The notes below the pieces were generated by a model that was not told the DNA's origin, made no database searches, and saw nothing but the letters and a program-made list of their open reading frames with translations. Positions 21,567 through 39,002 of a stretch of DNA of 44,567 nucleotides are shown here, in pieces. The DNA is taken from positions 1-44,567 of the IMG/VR virus record IMGVR_UViG_3300008954_000089, one strand, 5' to 3'. Source of the DNA: a virus. Position 1 is the stretch's first letter; every line of letters starts with the position of its first letter. Position numbers and translations under genes: made by a program.

Positions 21567-21671
21567 AAGGGGTTTTTGATAAGCCTCACACTATTTATAA
21601 TAGTTATTCTGCACTTTGTAGAGTAAATCTTGAAAATCGATTAAAAAAACATCAAGAGGAGATAGTATACT

Positions 21672-22568: not shown

Positions 22569-22988
22569 ATGATAGTAATTTATATAATCGGTGCCTTTCT
22601 CGCAGGGGCTTTTTTTCACAAGGTGTATAGTGCACTGGCGATCATTTTTGGCTTGAAGAGCCACCTTTTAACTGTGGTGGAGAACGAAATTCTTACTTTT
22701 GTTGTTAAGATGTATTCTAGAATGATAATGACGCTGGAGATGGGCTACGCCTCTCTGCGTCTGACAGGCATTGACGAAGAGAAAGTCAAGCTCTTGAGAA
22801 ACGAAGATGAACACGACATGAGAGAGTGGCGAAAAGAGATCATTCAGCATTTTGTGGACTCATACCCGCCAGCTTATAAAGCCTATTTGAATATTGAAAG
22901 CTGGGAAGGCGCCATGGAGCAGTTGGCAGCTTACAACGAATTTCCTGAAAGGAGTGAAGGTGATGAAATCATTGATGGCAATCCTTGA
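22569..22988 (+). CDS. Membrane-anchored phage protein
   Basis: 139 residues with an N-terminal transmembrane helix (VIYIIGAFLAGAFFHKVYSA) and a charged, helical soluble part. The gene directly precedes the amidase (26-base overlap), which makes a spanin/lysis-accessory role possible, but no lysis motif is visible. Probably in one transcript from the promoter at 22505. Confidence 0.75.
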   Translation: MIVIYIIGAFLAGAFFHKVYSALAIIFGLKSHLLTVVENEILTFVVKMYSRMIMTLEMGYASLRLTGIDEEKVKLLRNEDEHDMREWRKEIIQHFVDSYPPAYKAYLNIESWEGAMEQLAAYNEFPERSEGDEIIDGNP

Positions 22989-23844
22989 TATGATCCTAAG
23001 TTTGTTTTTTCGGGGAAAAAGACAAAAGGTTATGACACCCTCTCCTTTTTATAAGGAGCTACCACCACCCGAAGAGCTCCCCACTCGCCACAGCTTGGGA
23101 ATAGATAAAGACGGAAATGAGATGTTTATTACTGAAGACATCTCAGAAGAGGATCTGGCACACGCTAGAGAACAGTTTCGCATAGACAACATCGACAAGA
23201 AGATTGTGTGCAACAACGTGGAGATATCCATTGATTGGGAAGACACTATTCTGTGGACAGAGCCGGGAGCTCTCATGTGTAAGTCGAACCAGTACAAGAC
23301 AGTCTCAGGAAATCGAATGTCCTCCATTGACAAAATTGTGGTGCATTGGGATGGCTGCTTAAACTCAGCTCAGTGCGCGAAGGTTCTAGGACAGCGCGGC
23401 TTGTCTGCCCATTTCTGCATCGACAATGATGGCACCATTCACCAACTGATGGACACCAACCATGTTGCATGGCATGCCCGTGGCGTCAACTCCAAGAGTA
23501 TTGGCATCGAGATCAGTAACGCCGTCTTTAAAGAATATGTCCACAAATATGATCCTCCGCGCCCAATGGTTCCCAAAAGCACTTTGCATGGGAAGCCATT
23601 TCCTGAACACATGGGGTTCTATGATGTGCAGGTTGAGGCACTTCAGGAACTATTAAGATCTCTTTGCAGCTTCTATAATGTGCCTTTAGAGTACCCAAAC
23701 CAAAATGGCGAACTAATTAAGAACGTAATTAAAGCGTCGACGTTCAAAGGGGTGATATGTCACTACCATGTAACCGAGAACAAAGTAGATCCTGCGTGTC
23801 TGGATCTGGCACAAGTTATCGAGGAGATTAAAGATGAAATATAA
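22963..23844 (+). CDS. N-acetylmuramoyl-L-alanine amidase (PGRP/T7-lysozyme type), probable endolysin
   Basis: Cleaves the bond between muramic acid and the peptide stem in peptidoglycan to release progeny. ATG 22963 (293 residues) follows AAGGAG. The N-terminus MAILDMILSLFF is hydrophobic, like a signal-anchor. The amidase domain occupies about residues 120-280: IDKIVVHWDG (zinc His128), GLSAHFCIDNDGTIHQL (core strand pair), VAWHARGVNSKSIGIEI, and a C-terminal VICHYHVTENKVDPACL with the second zinc His and a Cys/Asp ligand. Amidase_2 families use this arrangement. A linker of ~90 residues precedes the domain. The holin-like gene is at 27316. Confidence 0.92.
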   Translation: MKSLMAILDMILSLFFRGKRQKVMTPSPFYKELPPPEELPTRHSLGIDKDGNEMFITEDISEEDLAHAREQFRIDNIDKKIVCNNVEISIDWEDTILWTEPGALMCKSNQYKTVSGNRMSSIDKIVVHWDGCLNSAQCAKVLGQRGLSAHFCIDNDGTIHQLMDTNHVAWHARGVNSKSIGIEISNAVFKEYVHKYDPPRPMVPKSTLHGKPFPEHMGFYDVQVEALQELLRSLCSFYNVPLEYPNQNGELIKNVIKASTFKGVICHYHVTENKVDPACLDLAQVIEEIKDEI

Positions 23845-27268: not shown

Positions 27269-27315
27269 GCTGCCACCCGCGACTACTTATTTAGTGTTAA
27301 TAAGGAGTTTGAAAT

Positions 27316-27609
27316 ATGGAAGATAATTTTACAGATAACTATCATATATTAGCGACGGAAGTTAAGGCGTCCCTTGAGGTGTTGTCCCTAAAGATGGATG
27401 ACATAAAAGAAAAGCAAGAGGAGATGACTTCCATCATCAACCGCGTAGAGAAGTCTCTTTATGAGCCCGATCAGGGATTGTATGCTCGCGTGAGAGACTT
27501 GGAGCAGTGGAAGAGAACACATTCTAAAATTCTCTGGATTGTGGCAACTGCCACTGTCGGCATGTTGGCATCTTTCGTCAAATCAGGAATAGAAAATTTG
27601 TTACAGTAG
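27316..27609 (+). CDS. Holin-like coiled-coil membrane protein (XhlA-like)
   Basis: 97 residues: an N-terminal coiled coil (LSLKMDDIKEKQEEMTSIIN), a conserved-looking segment ARVRDLEQWKRTHSKI, and one C-terminal transmembrane helix (ILWIVATATVGMLASFV). This is the layout of XhlA/DUF-type hemolysin-like holin accessories, often next to endolysins. It lies 3.5 kb after the amidase, so lysis function is plausible but not proven. Confidence 0.68.
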   Translation: MEDNFTDNYHILATEVKASLEVLSLKMDDIKEKQEEMTSIINRVEKSLYEPDQGLYARVRDLEQWKRTHSKILWIVATATVGMLASFVKSGIENLLQ

Positions 27610-28054: not shown

Positions 28055-28426
28055 GTGGCGAGGGAATTCAGCTTGGCCAAGGAAGAAAAGAGTGCTCTTC
28101 AAAAAATTGAGGCATTTTTGCAAGTCAACAACATCGAACTGTGTTATACAGAAGATGATGATAATTATATAGATCTGATAGAGGATCGTATTGTGGTATC
28201 CCGCCACCAACCATCCCGCAAAGTGATTTATACTATTCTTCATGAGATCGGACACTACTTTAGCGATTTCCACCCCGACGAAGAGTCCCACGCTGCTCAG
28301 GTTATTGAAGAAGTTTTGGCATGGGACACTGGAAAAGATGTTGCCTATGCTCTTAGGATAGACATTGACGAAGATGCGTGGAATTCCATTATGATTGCTA
28401 GTATCGCCAAATATATTGAGAAATGA
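28055..28426 (+). CDS. ImmA/IrrE-like zinc metallopeptidase domain protein
   Basis: 123 residues. HEIGH (63-67) is the zinc-binding motif, preceded by the hydrophobic strand VIYTIL and followed by E85-E86 in EEVLAW as the likely third ligand. This is the minimal ImmA/IrrE arrangement; some relatives cleave a repressor or regulator. Start choice is uncertain: GTG 28055 has no adjacent SD but follows a 7-bp hairpin (ACAGAAG 28035-28041/CTTCTGT 28050-28056) that could bring AGGA at 28031 close. TTG 28073 follows GAGGG with 8-base spacing and may be the real start. Confidence 0.82.
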   Translation: MAREFSLAKEEKSALQKIEAFLQVNNIELCYTEDDDNYIDLIEDRIVVSRHQPSRKVIYTILHEIGHYFSDFHPDEESHAAQVIEEVLAWDTGKDVAYALRIDIDEDAWNSIMIASIAKYIEK

Positions 28427-28948: not shown

Positions 28949-28977
28949 TTGTAAGATCTTTCAAAGTGTGATATAAT
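28949..28977 (+). promoter_or_regulatory. Extended -10 promoter placed for a leaderless transcript
   Basis: TTGTAA (28949-28954), a 17-bp spacer, and TATAAT (28972-28977) preceded by TGA, an extended -10. Only 7 bases separate the -10 from the ATG at 28985, so transcription should begin at or next to the start codon. No SD lies in that interval. A GATC site is at 28955-28958. Confidence 0.65.
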
Positions 28978-28984
28978 TACTTAT

Positions 28985-30913
28985 ATGGGAAAGAAACGCA
29001 CCCTCCTATTGATATTGGCGATACTCTCGCTTCTTCTCCCAGCTTGTAATGGCTGTGAAGAAGAACTGCAGCGTGTGTGTCCACCACCTCAAGAATGTGT
29101 TATAGATTCTGAGGGATATGTACGAACCGGAGAGGAATTCCGTGTCCGAACGATGGGCGAATGTTCTTTAGGTGTGACAACTTGCGATGAAGAACTCAAC
29201 CTAGTGTGTGAGGGTTATGTTGTTCCTGCACCGGAAGAGTGCAACAACAAGGATGACGATTGTGATGGGCTCATCGACAATGGCATCTCTTGGGATAACG
29301 ACGAAGACGGAGTGAACTCTCTTGATTCGTGCCTTAACGCGAGAGATTGTGATGACACTAACCCAGCCATTTATCCAGACCACGCTGAGATCTGCGATGG
29401 TGTGGACAACAACTGTGATGGAAAGATAGACGACATCGGCCCTGTAGATTGCTGGACGGGCTCTGATGATGTCATCTTTGATGACATCACCCAATGCAAG
29501 ATGGGCATTATGGAATGTATTGATGGCACCATGACTAACTGCCAAGGCCAAATACTCGATGAAGATGAAACCTGCGATGGTTATGATAACGATTGTGATG
29601 GGATTATCGACGAAGATCCAATGGAGCTTCGAACCCTCCACCAAAGGGTATGTGGTTATAATGATCGGGGCTTGTGTTCCTATGGGATGAATTACTGCGT
29701 CGAGGGCGATATCAAATGTTTTGATGCGGTGATGCCTGAGAACGAAGTGTGTAATAACCTCGATGACAATTGTAATGGTATCGTCGATGAGAATATTTAC
29801 CAGCCATGTGAGACAATCTGTGGCGTTGGTGTAGAGATGTGTCAAGATGGCAGTTGGGTAAACTGCAACGCCCCCACACCCCAAGTTGAACTATGCGATT
29901 ACATCGATAATGATTGCGATGGCGTCGTCGATGAGGGATGTTTGTGTGTGGTGGACGACACTCAAGTCTGCCGCGAGAACATATACGATTCCGACGGCAA
30001 CCTCTTGAATTGTGGCTATGGCATTCAAGTTTGCGATATGTTTGGTGTCTGGGGCCCCTGTATGTATCAGGGCATTGAACCAGAAATCTGTGACAATTGG
30101 GATAACGATTGTGATGGCACCATTGACATGATCACGGCGATGTGTGGTAACAACCCTAGCCTTCATGGGGTAGGCGAATGTATGCTTGGCACCACCACCT
30201 GTGAAGTTGGCGAGTGGGGCGAATGTGTAGGCGAGATAGAGCCCACCGAAGAAATTTGCGACATGCTGGACAACGATTGCGATGGAGAAATAGACGAAGA
30301 CTTAAACACCCATGACCAAGTTGATATGTTATTTATTATAGATATCTCAGGCTCAATGTGTCCATACATCCAAGCACTCTACGAGGGCATCACTGCTTAT
30401 GTGGCAGACTTCCAGGATTCGGAGCATCGCTTTGGGCTGATTGTCCATCCAATGCGTCATCAATATGCGACACCCGAACTTTTAACACCCAGCATGATGA
30501 TCGATGCGGCATCTTTTCAATCCCTTTTGGGTGGTTTGTCGTGCAACGGCGGCGGCGCCGAACCCACCACCAACGTTATTATGGATGCGGTTGATCCCAT
30601 GAACCCAATGGGTATCCCTTGGCGCAGCGATTCCTTTCCTTATGTAATCAGTATCAGCGACGAAGGACCCCAAAGCATGGGCAGTACCTATGAGTCGCCT
30701 TCGGACATCGCACCGTTTGTTTCTACTTGCCAACTTGCAGGCTGCGAGCCCGGCGATTCAGTGGAGATATTTTTTATTGACGCTGCCAATTATTTAAGCT
30801 CTTGGGGGCCAGCATGCTTCCAAGATCCGGATCGAACAATAGACATTGATCCCGCATCCGGCTCACGTTACACTCAGATTTTGCAGGATATTTTTGAAGA
30901 TGTTTGTTTCTAG
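28985..30913 (+). CDS. MopE-repeat lipoprotein with von Willebrand A domain
   Basis: 642 residues, predicted exported lipoprotein: a basic N-terminus and hydrophobic stretch ending in lipobox LLPAC (Cys21). Seven copies of the putative metal-binding motif follow (each roughly C-x3-D-N/D-x-C-D-G-x-I-D, for example ICDGVDNNCDGKIDD), at about residues 86, 136, 196, 255, 303, 368 and 424. After about residue 446 comes a VWA domain with MIDAS DISGS (453-457). Such repeats are typical of MopE-type surface proteins in Myxococcota and related bacteria, and are unexpected in a phage. It may bind metal ions or host-surface partners. It starts leaderless from the promoter at 28949. Origin by gene transfer from a host is likely. 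Confidence 0.93.
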   Translation: MGKKRTLLLILAILSLLLPACNGCEEELQRVCPPPQECVIDSEGYVRTGEEFRVRTMGECSLGVTTCDEELNLVCEGYVVPAPEECNNKDDDCDGLIDNGISWDNDEDGVNSLDSCLNARDCDDTNPAIYPDHAEICDGVDNNCDGKIDDIGPVDCWTGSDDVIFDDITQCKMGIMECIDGTMTNCQGQILDEDETCDGYDNDCDGIIDEDPMELRTLHQRVCGYNDRGLCSYGMNYCVEGDIKCFDAVMPENEVCNNLDDNCNGIVDENIYQPCETICGVGVEMCQDGSWVNCNAPTPQVELCDYIDNDCDGVVDEGCLCVVDDTQVCRENIYDSDGNLLNCGYGIQVCDMFGVWGPCMYQGIEPEICDNWDNDCDGTIDMITAMCGNNPSLHGVGECMLGTTTCEVGEWGECVGEIEPTEEICDMLDNDCDGEIDEDLNTHDQVDMLFIIDISGSMCPYIQALYEGITAYVADFQDSEHRFGLIVHPMRHQYATPELLTPSMMIDAASFQSLLGGLSCNGGGAEPTTNVIMDAVDPMNPMGIPWRSDSFPYVISISDEGPQSMGSTYESPSDIAPFVSTCQLAGCEPGDSVEIFFIDAANYLSSWGPACFQDPDRTIDIDPASGSRYTQILQDIFEDVCF

Positions 30914-31299: not shown

Positions 31300-31533
31300 G
31301 TGGAAGAAAACGAACCGATCATTGAACGAAGCCGAATGAACCTGCTTCAATTTATGGCGCTTATTGCCATGTTACTGACTCTCTTAACTGGAGAAAAGAT
31401 AGGATTCTGTGTTGCCACCGCATTAATGTGTGCGCTCAAGGGGATTTCAATGGTTGTGTATGAGGATTCCAAGGAAGCAATCTTCGCTACCATTTATGCT
31501 GGCTTTGCCGTGATGTTCTTTTTGGATTTGTAG
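31300..31533 (+). CDS. Small membrane protein with two or three transmembrane helices
   Basis: 77 residues, GTG start 1 base after the previous stop. Hydrophobic helices cover LLQFMALIAMLLTLLTG, GFCVATALMCALKGISMVVY and AIFATIYAGFAVMFFLDL. It lies between two envelope-directed genes, so a membrane role in the accessory cluster is plausible. Function unknown. Confidence 0.72.
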   Translation: MEENEPIIERSRMNLLQFMALIAMLLTLLTGEKIGFCVATALMCALKGISMVVYEDSKEAIFATIYAGFAVMFFLDL

Positions 31534-31540
31534 GATAGTT

Positions 31541-32182
31541 ATGAATATGTTAAAAGCTTTCATAAAAGTGTGTGTTGTGTTATCCATTCCCATCGCTATA
31601 CCTGCCAGCGGAGCAGAAATTGGTGCCTTGTGGAACAATGTATCTCTTTTCCACACACCCCTTTCAAATAAGAGGTGCTCGGCAGTTCCGGCTGACAAGC
31701 CGCATCGGATACCAGGGTACGAATTTGGATATCAAACAACTGATGACTGCGATTATTTTTATCCGTCGCATACTTCTGTTGCGATGCACCTCTTTTATGT
31801 AGAGTGGGTGAACAAGTTCCGCGACGATGACGGACGCATTTTGAAGGCACTTAATAATTTATATGTGGAGTATGGCACCTACCAGCGAATGGTTGCGCGT
31901 ATTTATAGTATTGATGGAAATTATCGCCCAAAGCCAACGGTGGTGAACGGGCTAGCTGGCAATCATGGCAAATATATATTTGTTTGGATTGGCAAAGGAG
32001 CTCACCCAAAGTTGTATAAGACATCACTTGTGCATGAGCTGGTGCATGTGGCAATCTATGCCCTAAACTTTGGCAAACATGGCGATCCCGATCACGAAGG
32101 TGATAAATATGAGGGATGGAGTACCATGCACACGAAATTTATTGAAGATACTAACAAGATTCTTGAGAGTATGGATCTGTAA
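31541..32182 (+). CDS. Secreted zinc metalloprotease (HELVH)
   Basis: 213 residues with a signal peptide (positively charged start, hydrophobic core VCVVLSIPIAI, predicted cleavage near ASGA/E25). HELVH at 165-169 is a zinc-binding HExxH site, and DPDHEGDKY (His185) could give the third ligand. Cys46 and Cys70 may form a disulfide. This fits a small exported metallopeptidase, possibly acting on the cell envelope or on host surface proteins. Another family with the same motif is possible. It follows the membrane protein gene with an 8-base gap. Confidence 0.78.
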   Translation: MNMLKAFIKVCVVLSIPIAIPASGAEIGALWNNVSLFHTPLSNKRCSAVPADKPHRIPGYEFGYQTTDDCDYFYPSHTSVAMHLFYVEWVNKFRDDDGRILKALNNLYVEYGTYQRMVARIYSIDGNYRPKPTVVNGLAGNHGKYIFVWIGKGAHPKLYKTSLVHELVHVAIYALNFGKHGDPDHEGDKYEGWSTMHTKFIEDTNKILESMDL

Positions 32183-36708: not shown

Positions 36709-37794
36709 ATGGCAATCGACTTTAAGACGTTTAATCAAACCGCACCTCTCATTTTAGACTCGAAATTCCCCGTTTTATTGCGTGGGCGCCACGGGATAGG
36801 TAAATCTCAGGTGGTTTATCAGGTTGCCAAGAAGCTCCGTGTGCCCGTTGTGGAACGTCGAGCCTCCCAGATGACAGAAGGCGATCTGCTGGGTATTCCT
36901 TCCCCCGATGGCATGACTATTAATGGTGAGCAAGCATCGAAGTTTCGCCCATTTGATTGGCTCGTGCAAGCATGCACCGAGCCCGTGGTGCTTTTCTTTG
37001 ATGAAATTGATCGCGCAACCATTGAGGTGCGCCAAGGCATTTTTGAACTCACTGACTCTCGCAAACTTGCGGGATGGCACCTACATGAAGGTACAGTGAT
37101 TGTTGCTGCCATCAATGGTGGTGAGCATGGCTCTCAGTATCAGGTAGGTGAAATGGATCCTGCCGAGTTGGATCGGTGGGCAACATTTGATGTTGAGCCC
37201 TCTGTGGAAGATTGGCTGGATTGGGGTAAGGATAATGTTAATGAACTTATCTGGGACTTCATCAATCAAAATCGGAAGCACCTGGAACACTTGGATGACT
37301 TTGAACCTAATAAAGTTTACCCGTCTAGGCGTTCGTGGGATCGCCTGAGTCAAACGATGGATGAAGCTGGGCTCTTTGCCAAGCCTTCTGCCAAAGCAGT
37401 TTTCAACTTGACTTCTGTTTTTGTTGGGTTTGAAGCAGCTGTAGCATTTTGCGACTTCATCAAGAATTATCGCAAGATTGTAACTCCCGAAGATATTTTG
37501 GCAAATGGCAACATTAGCCTCACCGAGAAGTTCGGCATCAACGATCATTCTGCGCTCGTAGAGAAAATGGAAGCAGCAGGATCGTTTAACGATAAGTTGA
37601 AAAAGAAAGAACTTAAAAACCTTGCGGCTTACTTCAAGACGCTGCCTTCTGAGGTAGCGATGAAGCTGTGGTATTCCCTCACCGCATCAGGCGGAGACAT
37701 TCAGAATACCATAAGTCTGCATCCTCTCATCAAGGAAGAGTTGGTGGGTATGCTCACCAACATTGATGATCCTAAACTTAACACCGAAGAATAG
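36709..37794 (+). CDS. MoxR-type AAA+ ATPase
   Basis: 361 residues. Walker A GRHGIGKS (26-33), Walker B VVLFFDEI (93-100), sensor 1 near VIVAAIN, and a SRRSWDRLS region typical of the arginine-containing lid. MoxR family ATPases act as chaperone-like remodellers together with VWA proteins. The VWA partner follows after 8 bases, so this is a classical MoxR-VWA pair inside a phage. SD CCGGAGA precedes ATG 36709. The promoter and operator lie at 36642-36680. Confidence 0.93.
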   Translation: MAIDFKTFNQTAPLILDSKFPVLLRGRHGIGKSQVVYQVAKKLRVPVVERRASQMTEGDLLGIPSPDGMTINGEQASKFRPFDWLVQACTEPVVLFFDEIDRATIEVRQGIFELTDSRKLAGWHLHEGTVIVAAINGGEHGSQYQVGEMDPAELDRWATFDVEPSVEDWLDWGKDNVNELIWDFINQNRKHLEHLDDFEPNKVYPSRRSWDRLSQTMDEAGLFAKPSAKAVFNLTSVFVGFEAAVAFCDFIKNYRKIVTPEDILANGNISLTEKFGINDHSALVEKMEAAGSFNDKLKKKELKNLAAYFKTLPSEVAMKLWYSLTASGGDIQNTISLHPLIKEELVGMLTNIDDPKLNTEE

Positions 37795-37802
37795 GAGTTA
37801 AG

Positions 37803-39002
37803 ATGACTAAAAAAGTATTTAACTTGAATCGCCACACTGCACGTCTGTTGATGGATGAGCCATTCTTTGCTGCCTTGAGTCGCAGAGTGGATAAGGTAGA
37901 GTGTCGAGCTTTGCCCACTGCCGCAATGAGGCTGGATGATGATGGCTTCTTCACCATGTTGTATAATCCTGATTACTTTGCTGATTTGACAGATCAGGAA
38001 ATGGCAGATGTATTGAAGCATGAGTTTTATCATATTATTTTTGAGCATGTCACTGGCAGACTCCCCGGAGAGACTGTTACGATGCTGTGGAACTTTGCTA
38101 CCGACTTGGCTATCAATAGCCATCTGCGTCATCTGCCCGAAGGTGCGTTGATACCAGGAGAGGCAGACTTTGAAGATCTCCCCAAAGGGTTATCCGCTGA
38201 ACAGTATCATGCCATTCTGCAACAGAGGCAGAAGGAAGAAGAGAAATCTCAAGGTGAAGGAAGTTCATCCGGTTCCGAGGGAAAGAAAACACTCGATGAA
38301 ATCGATGAGTTTGATAGCCACGATGGTTGGGGCAAGTCCGAAGGTGCAGCCCCACAAATTGCCAAAGAGCGATTGAAGAACATGATCCGCGAAGCAGCTA
38401 AGGAGGCATCTGCCAGTGGTGGGTGGGGGAGTGTTCCTGAGAATATCAAGAAAGACATCCTCTCTCGCATTGATGGTACGCTGGACTGGAAGAAGGTTCT
38501 GAGGTATTTCATAAAAACCTCCCAGAAGGCAGAGAAATCCTCCACCGTTAAGCGTGTCAATAGACGATACCCTTACCTTCACCCTGGTAGAAAGACGAGC
38601 CGCCAAGCTCGTGTAGCAATCAGCATCGATCAAAGCGGAAGCGTTGATGATGGTATGCTTGCAGCATTTTTTGGTGAACTGAATAAGTTGGCAGAGATTG
38701 CCACCTTTACTGTTGTGCCGTTCGATACGAACGTAAGCGAGGAGAATGTTTTTGATTGGCGCAAGGGGCAGAGATTTGCCCACAAGCGTGTGCTTAGTGG
38801 CGGAACCTGCTTTGATGCACCCACTGCTTATGTAAACGAACGAGCCTTTGACGGACATATTATCTTGACAGATATGTATGCACCTAAGCCAAAGTCAAGC
38901 AAGTGCCAGCGCATGTGGATGACTACTCCACAGAACGCCAAGAACCCTTACTTTAAAACCAACGAAAGGGTGGTAGCTATTAGTTATGATCAAGGGAATT
39001 AA
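37803..39002 (+). CDS. VWA/metallopeptidase-like partner of MoxR (DUF2201-like)
   Basis: 399 residues. HEFYH at 73-77, within a helical domain, is an HExxH-type zinc motif; a charged, low-complexity linker (about 140-180) follows. The VWA-like C-terminal domain starts at residue 271 with MIDAS SIDQSGSVDD (D276, S278, S280) and an ILTDMY segment. The two-domain layout matches the DUF2201 family, which pairs with MoxR ATPases. The pair may load or unload a metal or remodel a host complex. Its end overlaps the next gene by 17 bases. Confidence 0.9.
   Translation: MTKKVFNLNRHTARLLMDEPFFAALSRRVDKVECRALPTAAMRLDDDGFFTMLYNPDYFADLTDQEMADVLKHEFYHIIFEHVTGRLPGETVTMLWNFATDLAINSHLRHLPEGALIPGEADFEDLPKGLSAEQYHAILQQRQKEEEKSQGEGSSSGSEGKKTLDEIDEFDSHDGWGKSEGAAPQIAKERLKNMIREAAKEASASGGWGSVPENIKKDILSRIDGTLDWKKVLRYFIKTSQKAEKSSTVKRVNRRYPYLHPGRKTSRQARVAISIDQSGSVDDGMLAAFFGELNKLAEIATFTVVPFDTNVSEENVFDWRKGQRFAHKRVLSGGTCFDAPTAYVNERAFDGHIILTDMYAPKPKSSKCQRMWMTTPQNAKNPYFKTNERVVAISYDQGN

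Follow-up and report, generated by a model that had tools for sequence, protein, structure and literature searches.

A phage-encoded lipoprotein with seven MopE-type repeats and a VWA domain represents a large viral family that may act on the host envelope

The window analyzed here, the whole of the IMG/VR record IMGVR_UViG_3300008954_000089, is a linear fragment of 44,567 bases. It encodes DNA polymerase III alpha, RecA/UvsX, DnaB, ribonucleotide reductase, GroEL and an amidase, together with a protein of 642 aa that a preliminary description, made from the letters of the sequence, had read as a phage-encoded lipoprotein with seven MopE-type repeats and a VWA domain. Our analysis supports this call, and the coordinates and strand given for it were correct. 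The following features of the locus are considered below:

22894..23844, + strand, N-acetylmuramoyl-L-alanine amidase, endolysin candidate (PF01510, 1.5e-22)
27316..27609, + strand, protein with a coiled coil and a C-terminal TM segment, weakly hemolysin/XhlA-like; late-like motif ACTACTTA upstream of it, at 27282
28055..28426, + strand, HEIGH protein, metalloprotease-like and cytosolic, the upstream neighbor (phrog_87, 3e-6)
28949..28977, + strand, sigma70-like promoter (consensus match only), TTGTAA - 17 bp - TATAAT with TG upstream of the -10; 7 bp separate it from the ATG
28985..30913, + strand, MopE-VWA lipoprotein, 642 aa, ATG at 28985, stop codon ending at 30913; five close homologues
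28985..29044, + strand, signal peptide, residues 1-20, with lipobox LLPAC; the lipid-bearing Cys21 follows at 29045-29047
29240..29281, + strand, MopE repeat 1 (CNNKDDDCDGLIDN), residue 86; PF11617, EF-type loop pattern
29393..29434, + strand, MopE repeat 2 (CDGVDNNCDGKIDD), residue 137; the best PF11617 stretch covers residues 121-150
29573..29614, + strand, MopE repeat 3 (CDGYDNDCDGIIDE), residue 197; PF11617, EF-type loop pattern
29750..29791, + strand, MopE repeat 4 (CNNLDDNCNGIVDE), residue 256; PF11617, EF-type loop pattern
29894..29935, + strand, MopE repeat 5 (CDYIDNDCDGVVDE), residue 304; PF11617, EF-type loop pattern
30089..30130, + strand, MopE repeat 6 (CDNWDNDCDGTIDM), residue 369; PF11617, EF-type loop pattern
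30257..30298, + strand, MopE repeat 7 (CDMLDNDCDGEIDE), residue 425; separated from the first VWA strand by a linker of ~8 residues
30320..30910, + strand, VWA (integrin I-like) domain, residues 446-642 (AlphaFold2 and Foldseek; relatives pass PF00092)
30341..30355, + strand, MIDAS DxSxS, D453-S457 (DISGS), invariant in a 19-sequence alignment and in 80/80 viral VWAs
30560-30562 and 30659-30664, + strand, E526 and D559-E560, which with C641 are further family-invariant residues in the same two alignments
31300..31533, + strand, 77-aa membrane protein, conserved in the close clade
31541..32182, + strand, exported HELVH (zincin-like) protein with a signal-peptide-like N terminus, three genes downstream

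The lipobox was confirmed by sequence comparison, since Cys21 is unchanged across six close homologues. The count of repeats was likewise exact: there are seven, at residues 86, 137, 197, 256, 304, 369 and 425. The MopE-family assignment, for which a profile check had been proposed, was borne out by PF11617, which matched the window protein in seven stretches with 107.1 bits against a cut-off of 27 (E=5e-31). Every one of the seven repeats matches the pattern of an EF-hand-type loop, D-x-[DNS]-x-[DNS]-G-x-[ILV]-D; shuffling the residues of the protein (n=2000) gave at most one such loop per shuffle. The protein is rich in cysteine (51 residues) and very acidic (131 Asp/Glu vs 21 Lys/Arg), and histidine is absent from the seven repeat motifs. 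Judging from these patterns, the repeats are seven disulfide-braced EF-hand-like (MopE) loops.

The presence of seven such loops makes calcium a likelier ligand than copper. In MopE the high-affinity copper site is formed by His132, His203 and kynurenine-130 and lies in the secreted MopE* part, outside the repeats, while calcium keeps the protein stable (PMC3423442). The window protein has the same Asp/Cys repeat type as MopE/MopE* of Methylococcus capsulatus, but it is without the MopE* copper part, is a lipoprotein and carries an added VWA domain. A profile of the six homologues found no sequence relative in the PDB. Metal capture during infection, one of the functions suggested in the preliminary description, was not supported as far as copper is concerned, because the MopE copper site is in MopE* and not in the repeats, which are carboxylate EF-type loops without histidine. 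Although PF11617 bears the name Cu-binding_MopE, we regard capture of copper, or buffering of metal at the surface during infection, as very improbable. In comparison to MopE-repeat proteins in general (PF11617), the window protein is similar in its seven repeats above cut-off and its secreted or surface setting; it differs in being phage-encoded, in having its last repeat compactly fused to a VWA domain and in the lack of a copper domain.

The VWA assignment held through the fold and through relatives, but not through the Pfam score of the window protein alone, for which the match was weak (VWA_4, E=0.062, below cut-off) and PF00092 also remained below cut-off. The PF00092 cut-off of 23.8 bits was exceeded by two relatives, L034 (27.1) and L103 (31.1). 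An AlphaFold2 model based on the 19-sequence alignment had a pLDDT of ~80 over residues 446-640, and Foldseek matched it to integrin alpha I domains and to those of the VWF A type, at E ~1e-7, with a probability of 1.00 and a TM of ~0.7 as measured on the target (integrin I / VWF A). The MIDAS motif DISGS, placed earlier near residue 453, is located at 453. The MIDAS D, S and S, then E, D-E and the final Cys are present in 80/80 viral VWAs. At the sequence level, the C-terminal part is a VWA/I-type domain with the acidic and serine residues of its MIDAS intact. The fold and the MIDAS residues are common to VWA/integrin I domains (PF00092), whereas the viral domains are distinguished by E526 in a GGxE motif, by the terminal Cys and by a clade of their own.

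Close homologues with 64–85% identity, all with seven repeats and a lipobox, occur in five viral contigs. Both flanks of the window are matched in gene order in L002, L003 and L004, and fewer neighbors are common to L005 and L006. The 191-kb relative G001 (L002) encodes terminase, a T4-type major head protein, tail sheath, tail tube and baseplate wedge and is, by its gene content, a contractile-tail phage genome. Estimates of dN/dS were 0.064 (window vs L002) and 0.057 (L005/L006), which are rough because dS exceeded 1; at about 0.06 they indicate strong purifying selection on the gene. An assembly chimera, which had been named as a possible refutation of the call, is ruled out by the synteny with related phage contigs and by this selection, and the gene is truly viral. 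Absence from close relatives had been given as one sign of a chimera; the gene was found in 3/3 loci that have GroEL at ≥83% identity and enough flank, and a fourth contig with such a GroEL ends too soon to show it. Among more distant GroEL-bearing phages the occurrence of PF11617 repeats is patchy (2/13 large contigs). On these comparisons, the gene is fixed in the window clade and accessory beyond it.

Some bacterial background exists for a passenger gene, acquired by mis-assembly or recent host capture and without phage function: the domain types are bacterial, and MopE repeats and VWA are also combined by bacteria, as in L051 of a deltaproteobacterial genome. That protein resembles the window protein in having both domains in one exported protein, but a long insertion separates its repeats from its VWA, which is placed on the bacterial side of the tree. 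The synteny in phage contigs, the dN/dS of 0.06 and the single viral VWA clade speak against a passenger, as does a pattern scan of genomes that gave no full-length close relative in bacteria. The chance of this explanation is negligible in our view, and for the window clade it is already refuted.

A first widening of the profile gave 21 loci, and later searches yielded at least 208 confirmed IMG/VR stretches with the MopE-VWA lipoprotein, the best 80 of which were analyzed. The architecture of the family comprises a lipobox, 2–9 repeats and a VWA domain, with a short linker between the last repeat and the VWA. A lipobox is found in essentially every member with a readable N terminus; 55/77 members have the strict pattern, most others show a looser one, as judged by eye, and Asp at +2 is rare. 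PF03237 was detected in 7/22 family records, the remaining records often being fragments. In a tree of these best 80 viral VWAs and a limited bacterial sample of 24 sequences, all viral domains fell in one clade (support 0.87). Bacterial MopE-repeat proteins from the first genome scan align only to about residue 489, mostly over the repeats. A bacterial origin via Myxococcota was considered and rejected: the VWA profile gave one strong match in 237 genomes, itself on a phage contig, in a search that scored only 12 candidates per genome and may miss weaker bacterial relatives. Neither PHROGs nor INPHARED had a match for the two members queried in each (the window protein and L103), no paper on a phage MopE-VWA protein was found in the open-access literature, and we know of no isolate phage with a member of the family. 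A phage-encoded surface lipoprotein is a kind of protein already known, but this large viral family is apparently undescribed. It provides a coherent and widespread home (at least 208 contig stretches) for proteins left uncovered by PHROGs and by annotated phage genomes.

The other secreted protein mentioned in the preliminary description corresponds to the HELVH protein at 31541-32182. This exported protein is conserved beside the MopE-VWA gene in three viral lineages; it had no Pfam match, and its low-confidence structural model (pLDDT 53) gave no fold match. In 35 contigs, found among L078-L123, the gene belongs to a fixed cassette of a divergent trypsin-like lipoprotein (Trypsin_2, 1e-13), a ~90-aa protein, a ~156-aa membrane-anchored protein and MopE-VWA, the two small proteins being exported or membrane proteins. 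A trypsin-like gene also lies at +1/-1 in L064, L067 and L070, in different gene settings, and an M50 (RseP-like) protease is added in nine contigs; the window itself contains no trypsin-like neighbor. Control loci centered on phage GroEL (n=77) contained neither the HELVH protein nor the small proteins of the cassette; nine of them had trypsin-like genes, with weaker scores.

In all six close homologues the top promoter-like site within 80 bp upstream is sigma70-like, although each such match occurs in 1–4% of random 80-mers of the window. The distance from the -10 to the ATG is 7 nt in four homologues and 22 nt in two; the transcript would be nearly leaderless in the former. A different, strand-biased motif, ACTAYTTA, is found in G001 (L014-L023) and at positions 21590 and 27282 of the window. 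In G001 it has 20 sense and no antisense copies (third-order Markov mean 6.1, maximum 16 in 60 simulations), 14 of the 20 lie in the intergenic 8% of the sequence, and the genes that follow it include those for baseplate, head/neck and tail tube. This motif may represent a late promoter of the phage group, and it was not found within 250 bp upstream of the lipoprotein gene in the six close homologues. Two further candidates for phage promoters, the T4-type late promoter TATAAATA and the general TATAATTA motif, were rejected, as they are not enriched before genes.

These data bear on two other roles. The holin-like gene 1.4 kb and the amidase 5 kb before the lipoprotein gene mean that a role in lysis fits too: the protein would act late and destabilize or tether the outer membrane, alone or with proteases, in place of spanins. 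An o-spanin is a small lipoprotein that pairs with an i-spanin of the inner membrane, next to the endolysin, and the window protein is similar in its lipoprotein topology; the recurrence of exported proteases as neighbors also agrees with lysis. Unlike spanins, however, it is a large, acidic protein of 642 aa with folded calcium-loop repeats and a MIDAS-bearing VWA, its promoter is sigma70-like with no late-like motif, such an amidase lies within the loci of only 8/93 family members, and elsewhere in the family (L030) the gene adjoins replication genes. We retain lysis as an unlikely rival because the amidase and the hemolysin/holin-like gene share the window segment. A place in the virion, as a receptor-binding or decoration protein, would suit the binding-domain architecture, and a MopE + beta-propeller lipoprotein without VWA (L039:9710-11776) lies among tail sheath and tube genes; but virion proteins of tailed phages are assembled in the cytoplasm, the lipobox is near universal in the family and no late-like motif precedes the gene, so that the probability of such a role is very small.

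The protein had also been regarded as the best clue to the host. Proteins with PF11617 occur in Myxococcota/deltaproteobacterial MAGs according to our genome scan, and one family phage contig (G246:C1; L147, L148), 34.9 kb long and containing runs of small "VGDLV" (SH3-like) proteins, was binned in a MAG of the phylum Myxococcota, although its G+C of 46% differs from the 67–70% of the MAG. A second MopE-repeat protein, in a 267-kb phage contig (L029:17075-18766), has a MYXO-CTERM-like tail (Cys, TM helix, RRK), and the MYXO-CTERM tag has been described as universal in Myxococcota (PMC11980579). A search of NCBIfam gave no MYXO-CTERM match for the L029 protein and nothing useful otherwise. The tail is a possible direct clue to Myxococcota, which as host are plausible but unproven, the evidence being suggestive only. 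Such a host, social or predatory, would give room for an adhesin that alters the behavior of the infected cell (aggregation, prey or kin contact, type IV pilus function) and so aids phage spread or protects the cell. Integrins and pilus-tip proteins use VWA/MIDAS domains for adhesion, and the frequency of MopE proteins in these MAGs and the MYXO-CTERM-like tail of the related phage agree with this proposal; nevertheless, the host is not established and there is no known aggregation partner, and we consider an adhesin improbable, though well above a virion role.

Taken together, the Sec/lipobox signal, the seven EF-type loops, the VWA fold, the invariant MIDAS and the purifying selection favor a protein of the host envelope, as do the conserved position of the sigma70-like promoter, the absence of the late-like motif and the recurrence of exported-protease neighbors. 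That it is a host-envelope lipoprotein is very likely, and a calcium-bound stalk with a MIDAS binding tip is likely, though somewhat less certain. We propose that after infection the gene would be transcribed by the host RNA polymerase from its own sigma70-like promoter, consistent with early expression. Signal peptidase II and the lipoprotein route would anchor the protein, most likely in the outer membrane, where it would be exposed at the surface. Calcium would turn the repeats into a rigid stalk of about 45 kDa, and, by way of a divalent metal, the VWA tip would bind a surface ligand at an acidic residue. This contact could mask or remodel the surface of the infected cell, with the exported proteases encoded alongside joining in in relatives, and the outcome would most likely be blocked adsorption of competing phages, i.e., superinfection exclusion.

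There is a known system of this kind, as Llp of T5 is a phage superinfection-exclusion lipoprotein. The window protein is much larger than Ltp and Llp, no sequence relation to them is claimed, and its role is inferred here. Ltp of TP-J34 is likewise a phage lipoprotein at the host surface, the location predicted for the window protein, and Ltp-type surface lipoproteins act in superinfection exclusion (PMC3952083). That the protein serves mainly for superinfection exclusion or receptor masking is a tentative suggestion, and the whole explanation, a phage lipoprotein on the host envelope with superinfection exclusion or surface remodeling as its most likely function, comes slightly nearer to an even chance without reaching it. 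Of the earlier proposal of metal binding or host-surface change, it is thus surface alteration that persists as the best functional guess. Many large uncultured bacterial viruses carry a gene for an envelope protein that is probably lipid-tethered, with a calcium-stiffened stalk and an integrin-like tip. The family points to a strategy common among large uncultured phages, in which a MIDAS binding domain modifies the host surface, and the invariant residues and the fixed protease cassette make this idea directly testable.

A bolder and rather doubtful scenario is an ancient, virus-specific module for envelope remodeling, in which the stalked, MIDAS-tipped lipoprotein would operate with envelope proteases (the trypsin-like lipoprotein, the RseP-like M50 and the HELVH zincin) and small membrane proteins in envelope-rich, possibly predatory or social Gram-negative hosts. 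If true, phages would run an integrin-like binding system on the surface of the infected cell.

At 36709-39002 the window encodes another VWA system, a cytosolic one, in which a CobS-like AAA ATPase is followed by a DUF2201 metallopeptidase/VWA protein; the pair is conserved across the clade and on the phage contig of G246 as well. In L024-L028, L032 and G001, many proteins carry LLENWRxxL or KITKxxLxxIIKEE at the N terminus, or LYGKLLxEW at the C terminus. These termini resemble the capsid-targeting peptides of T4, and many proteins may possibly be injected.
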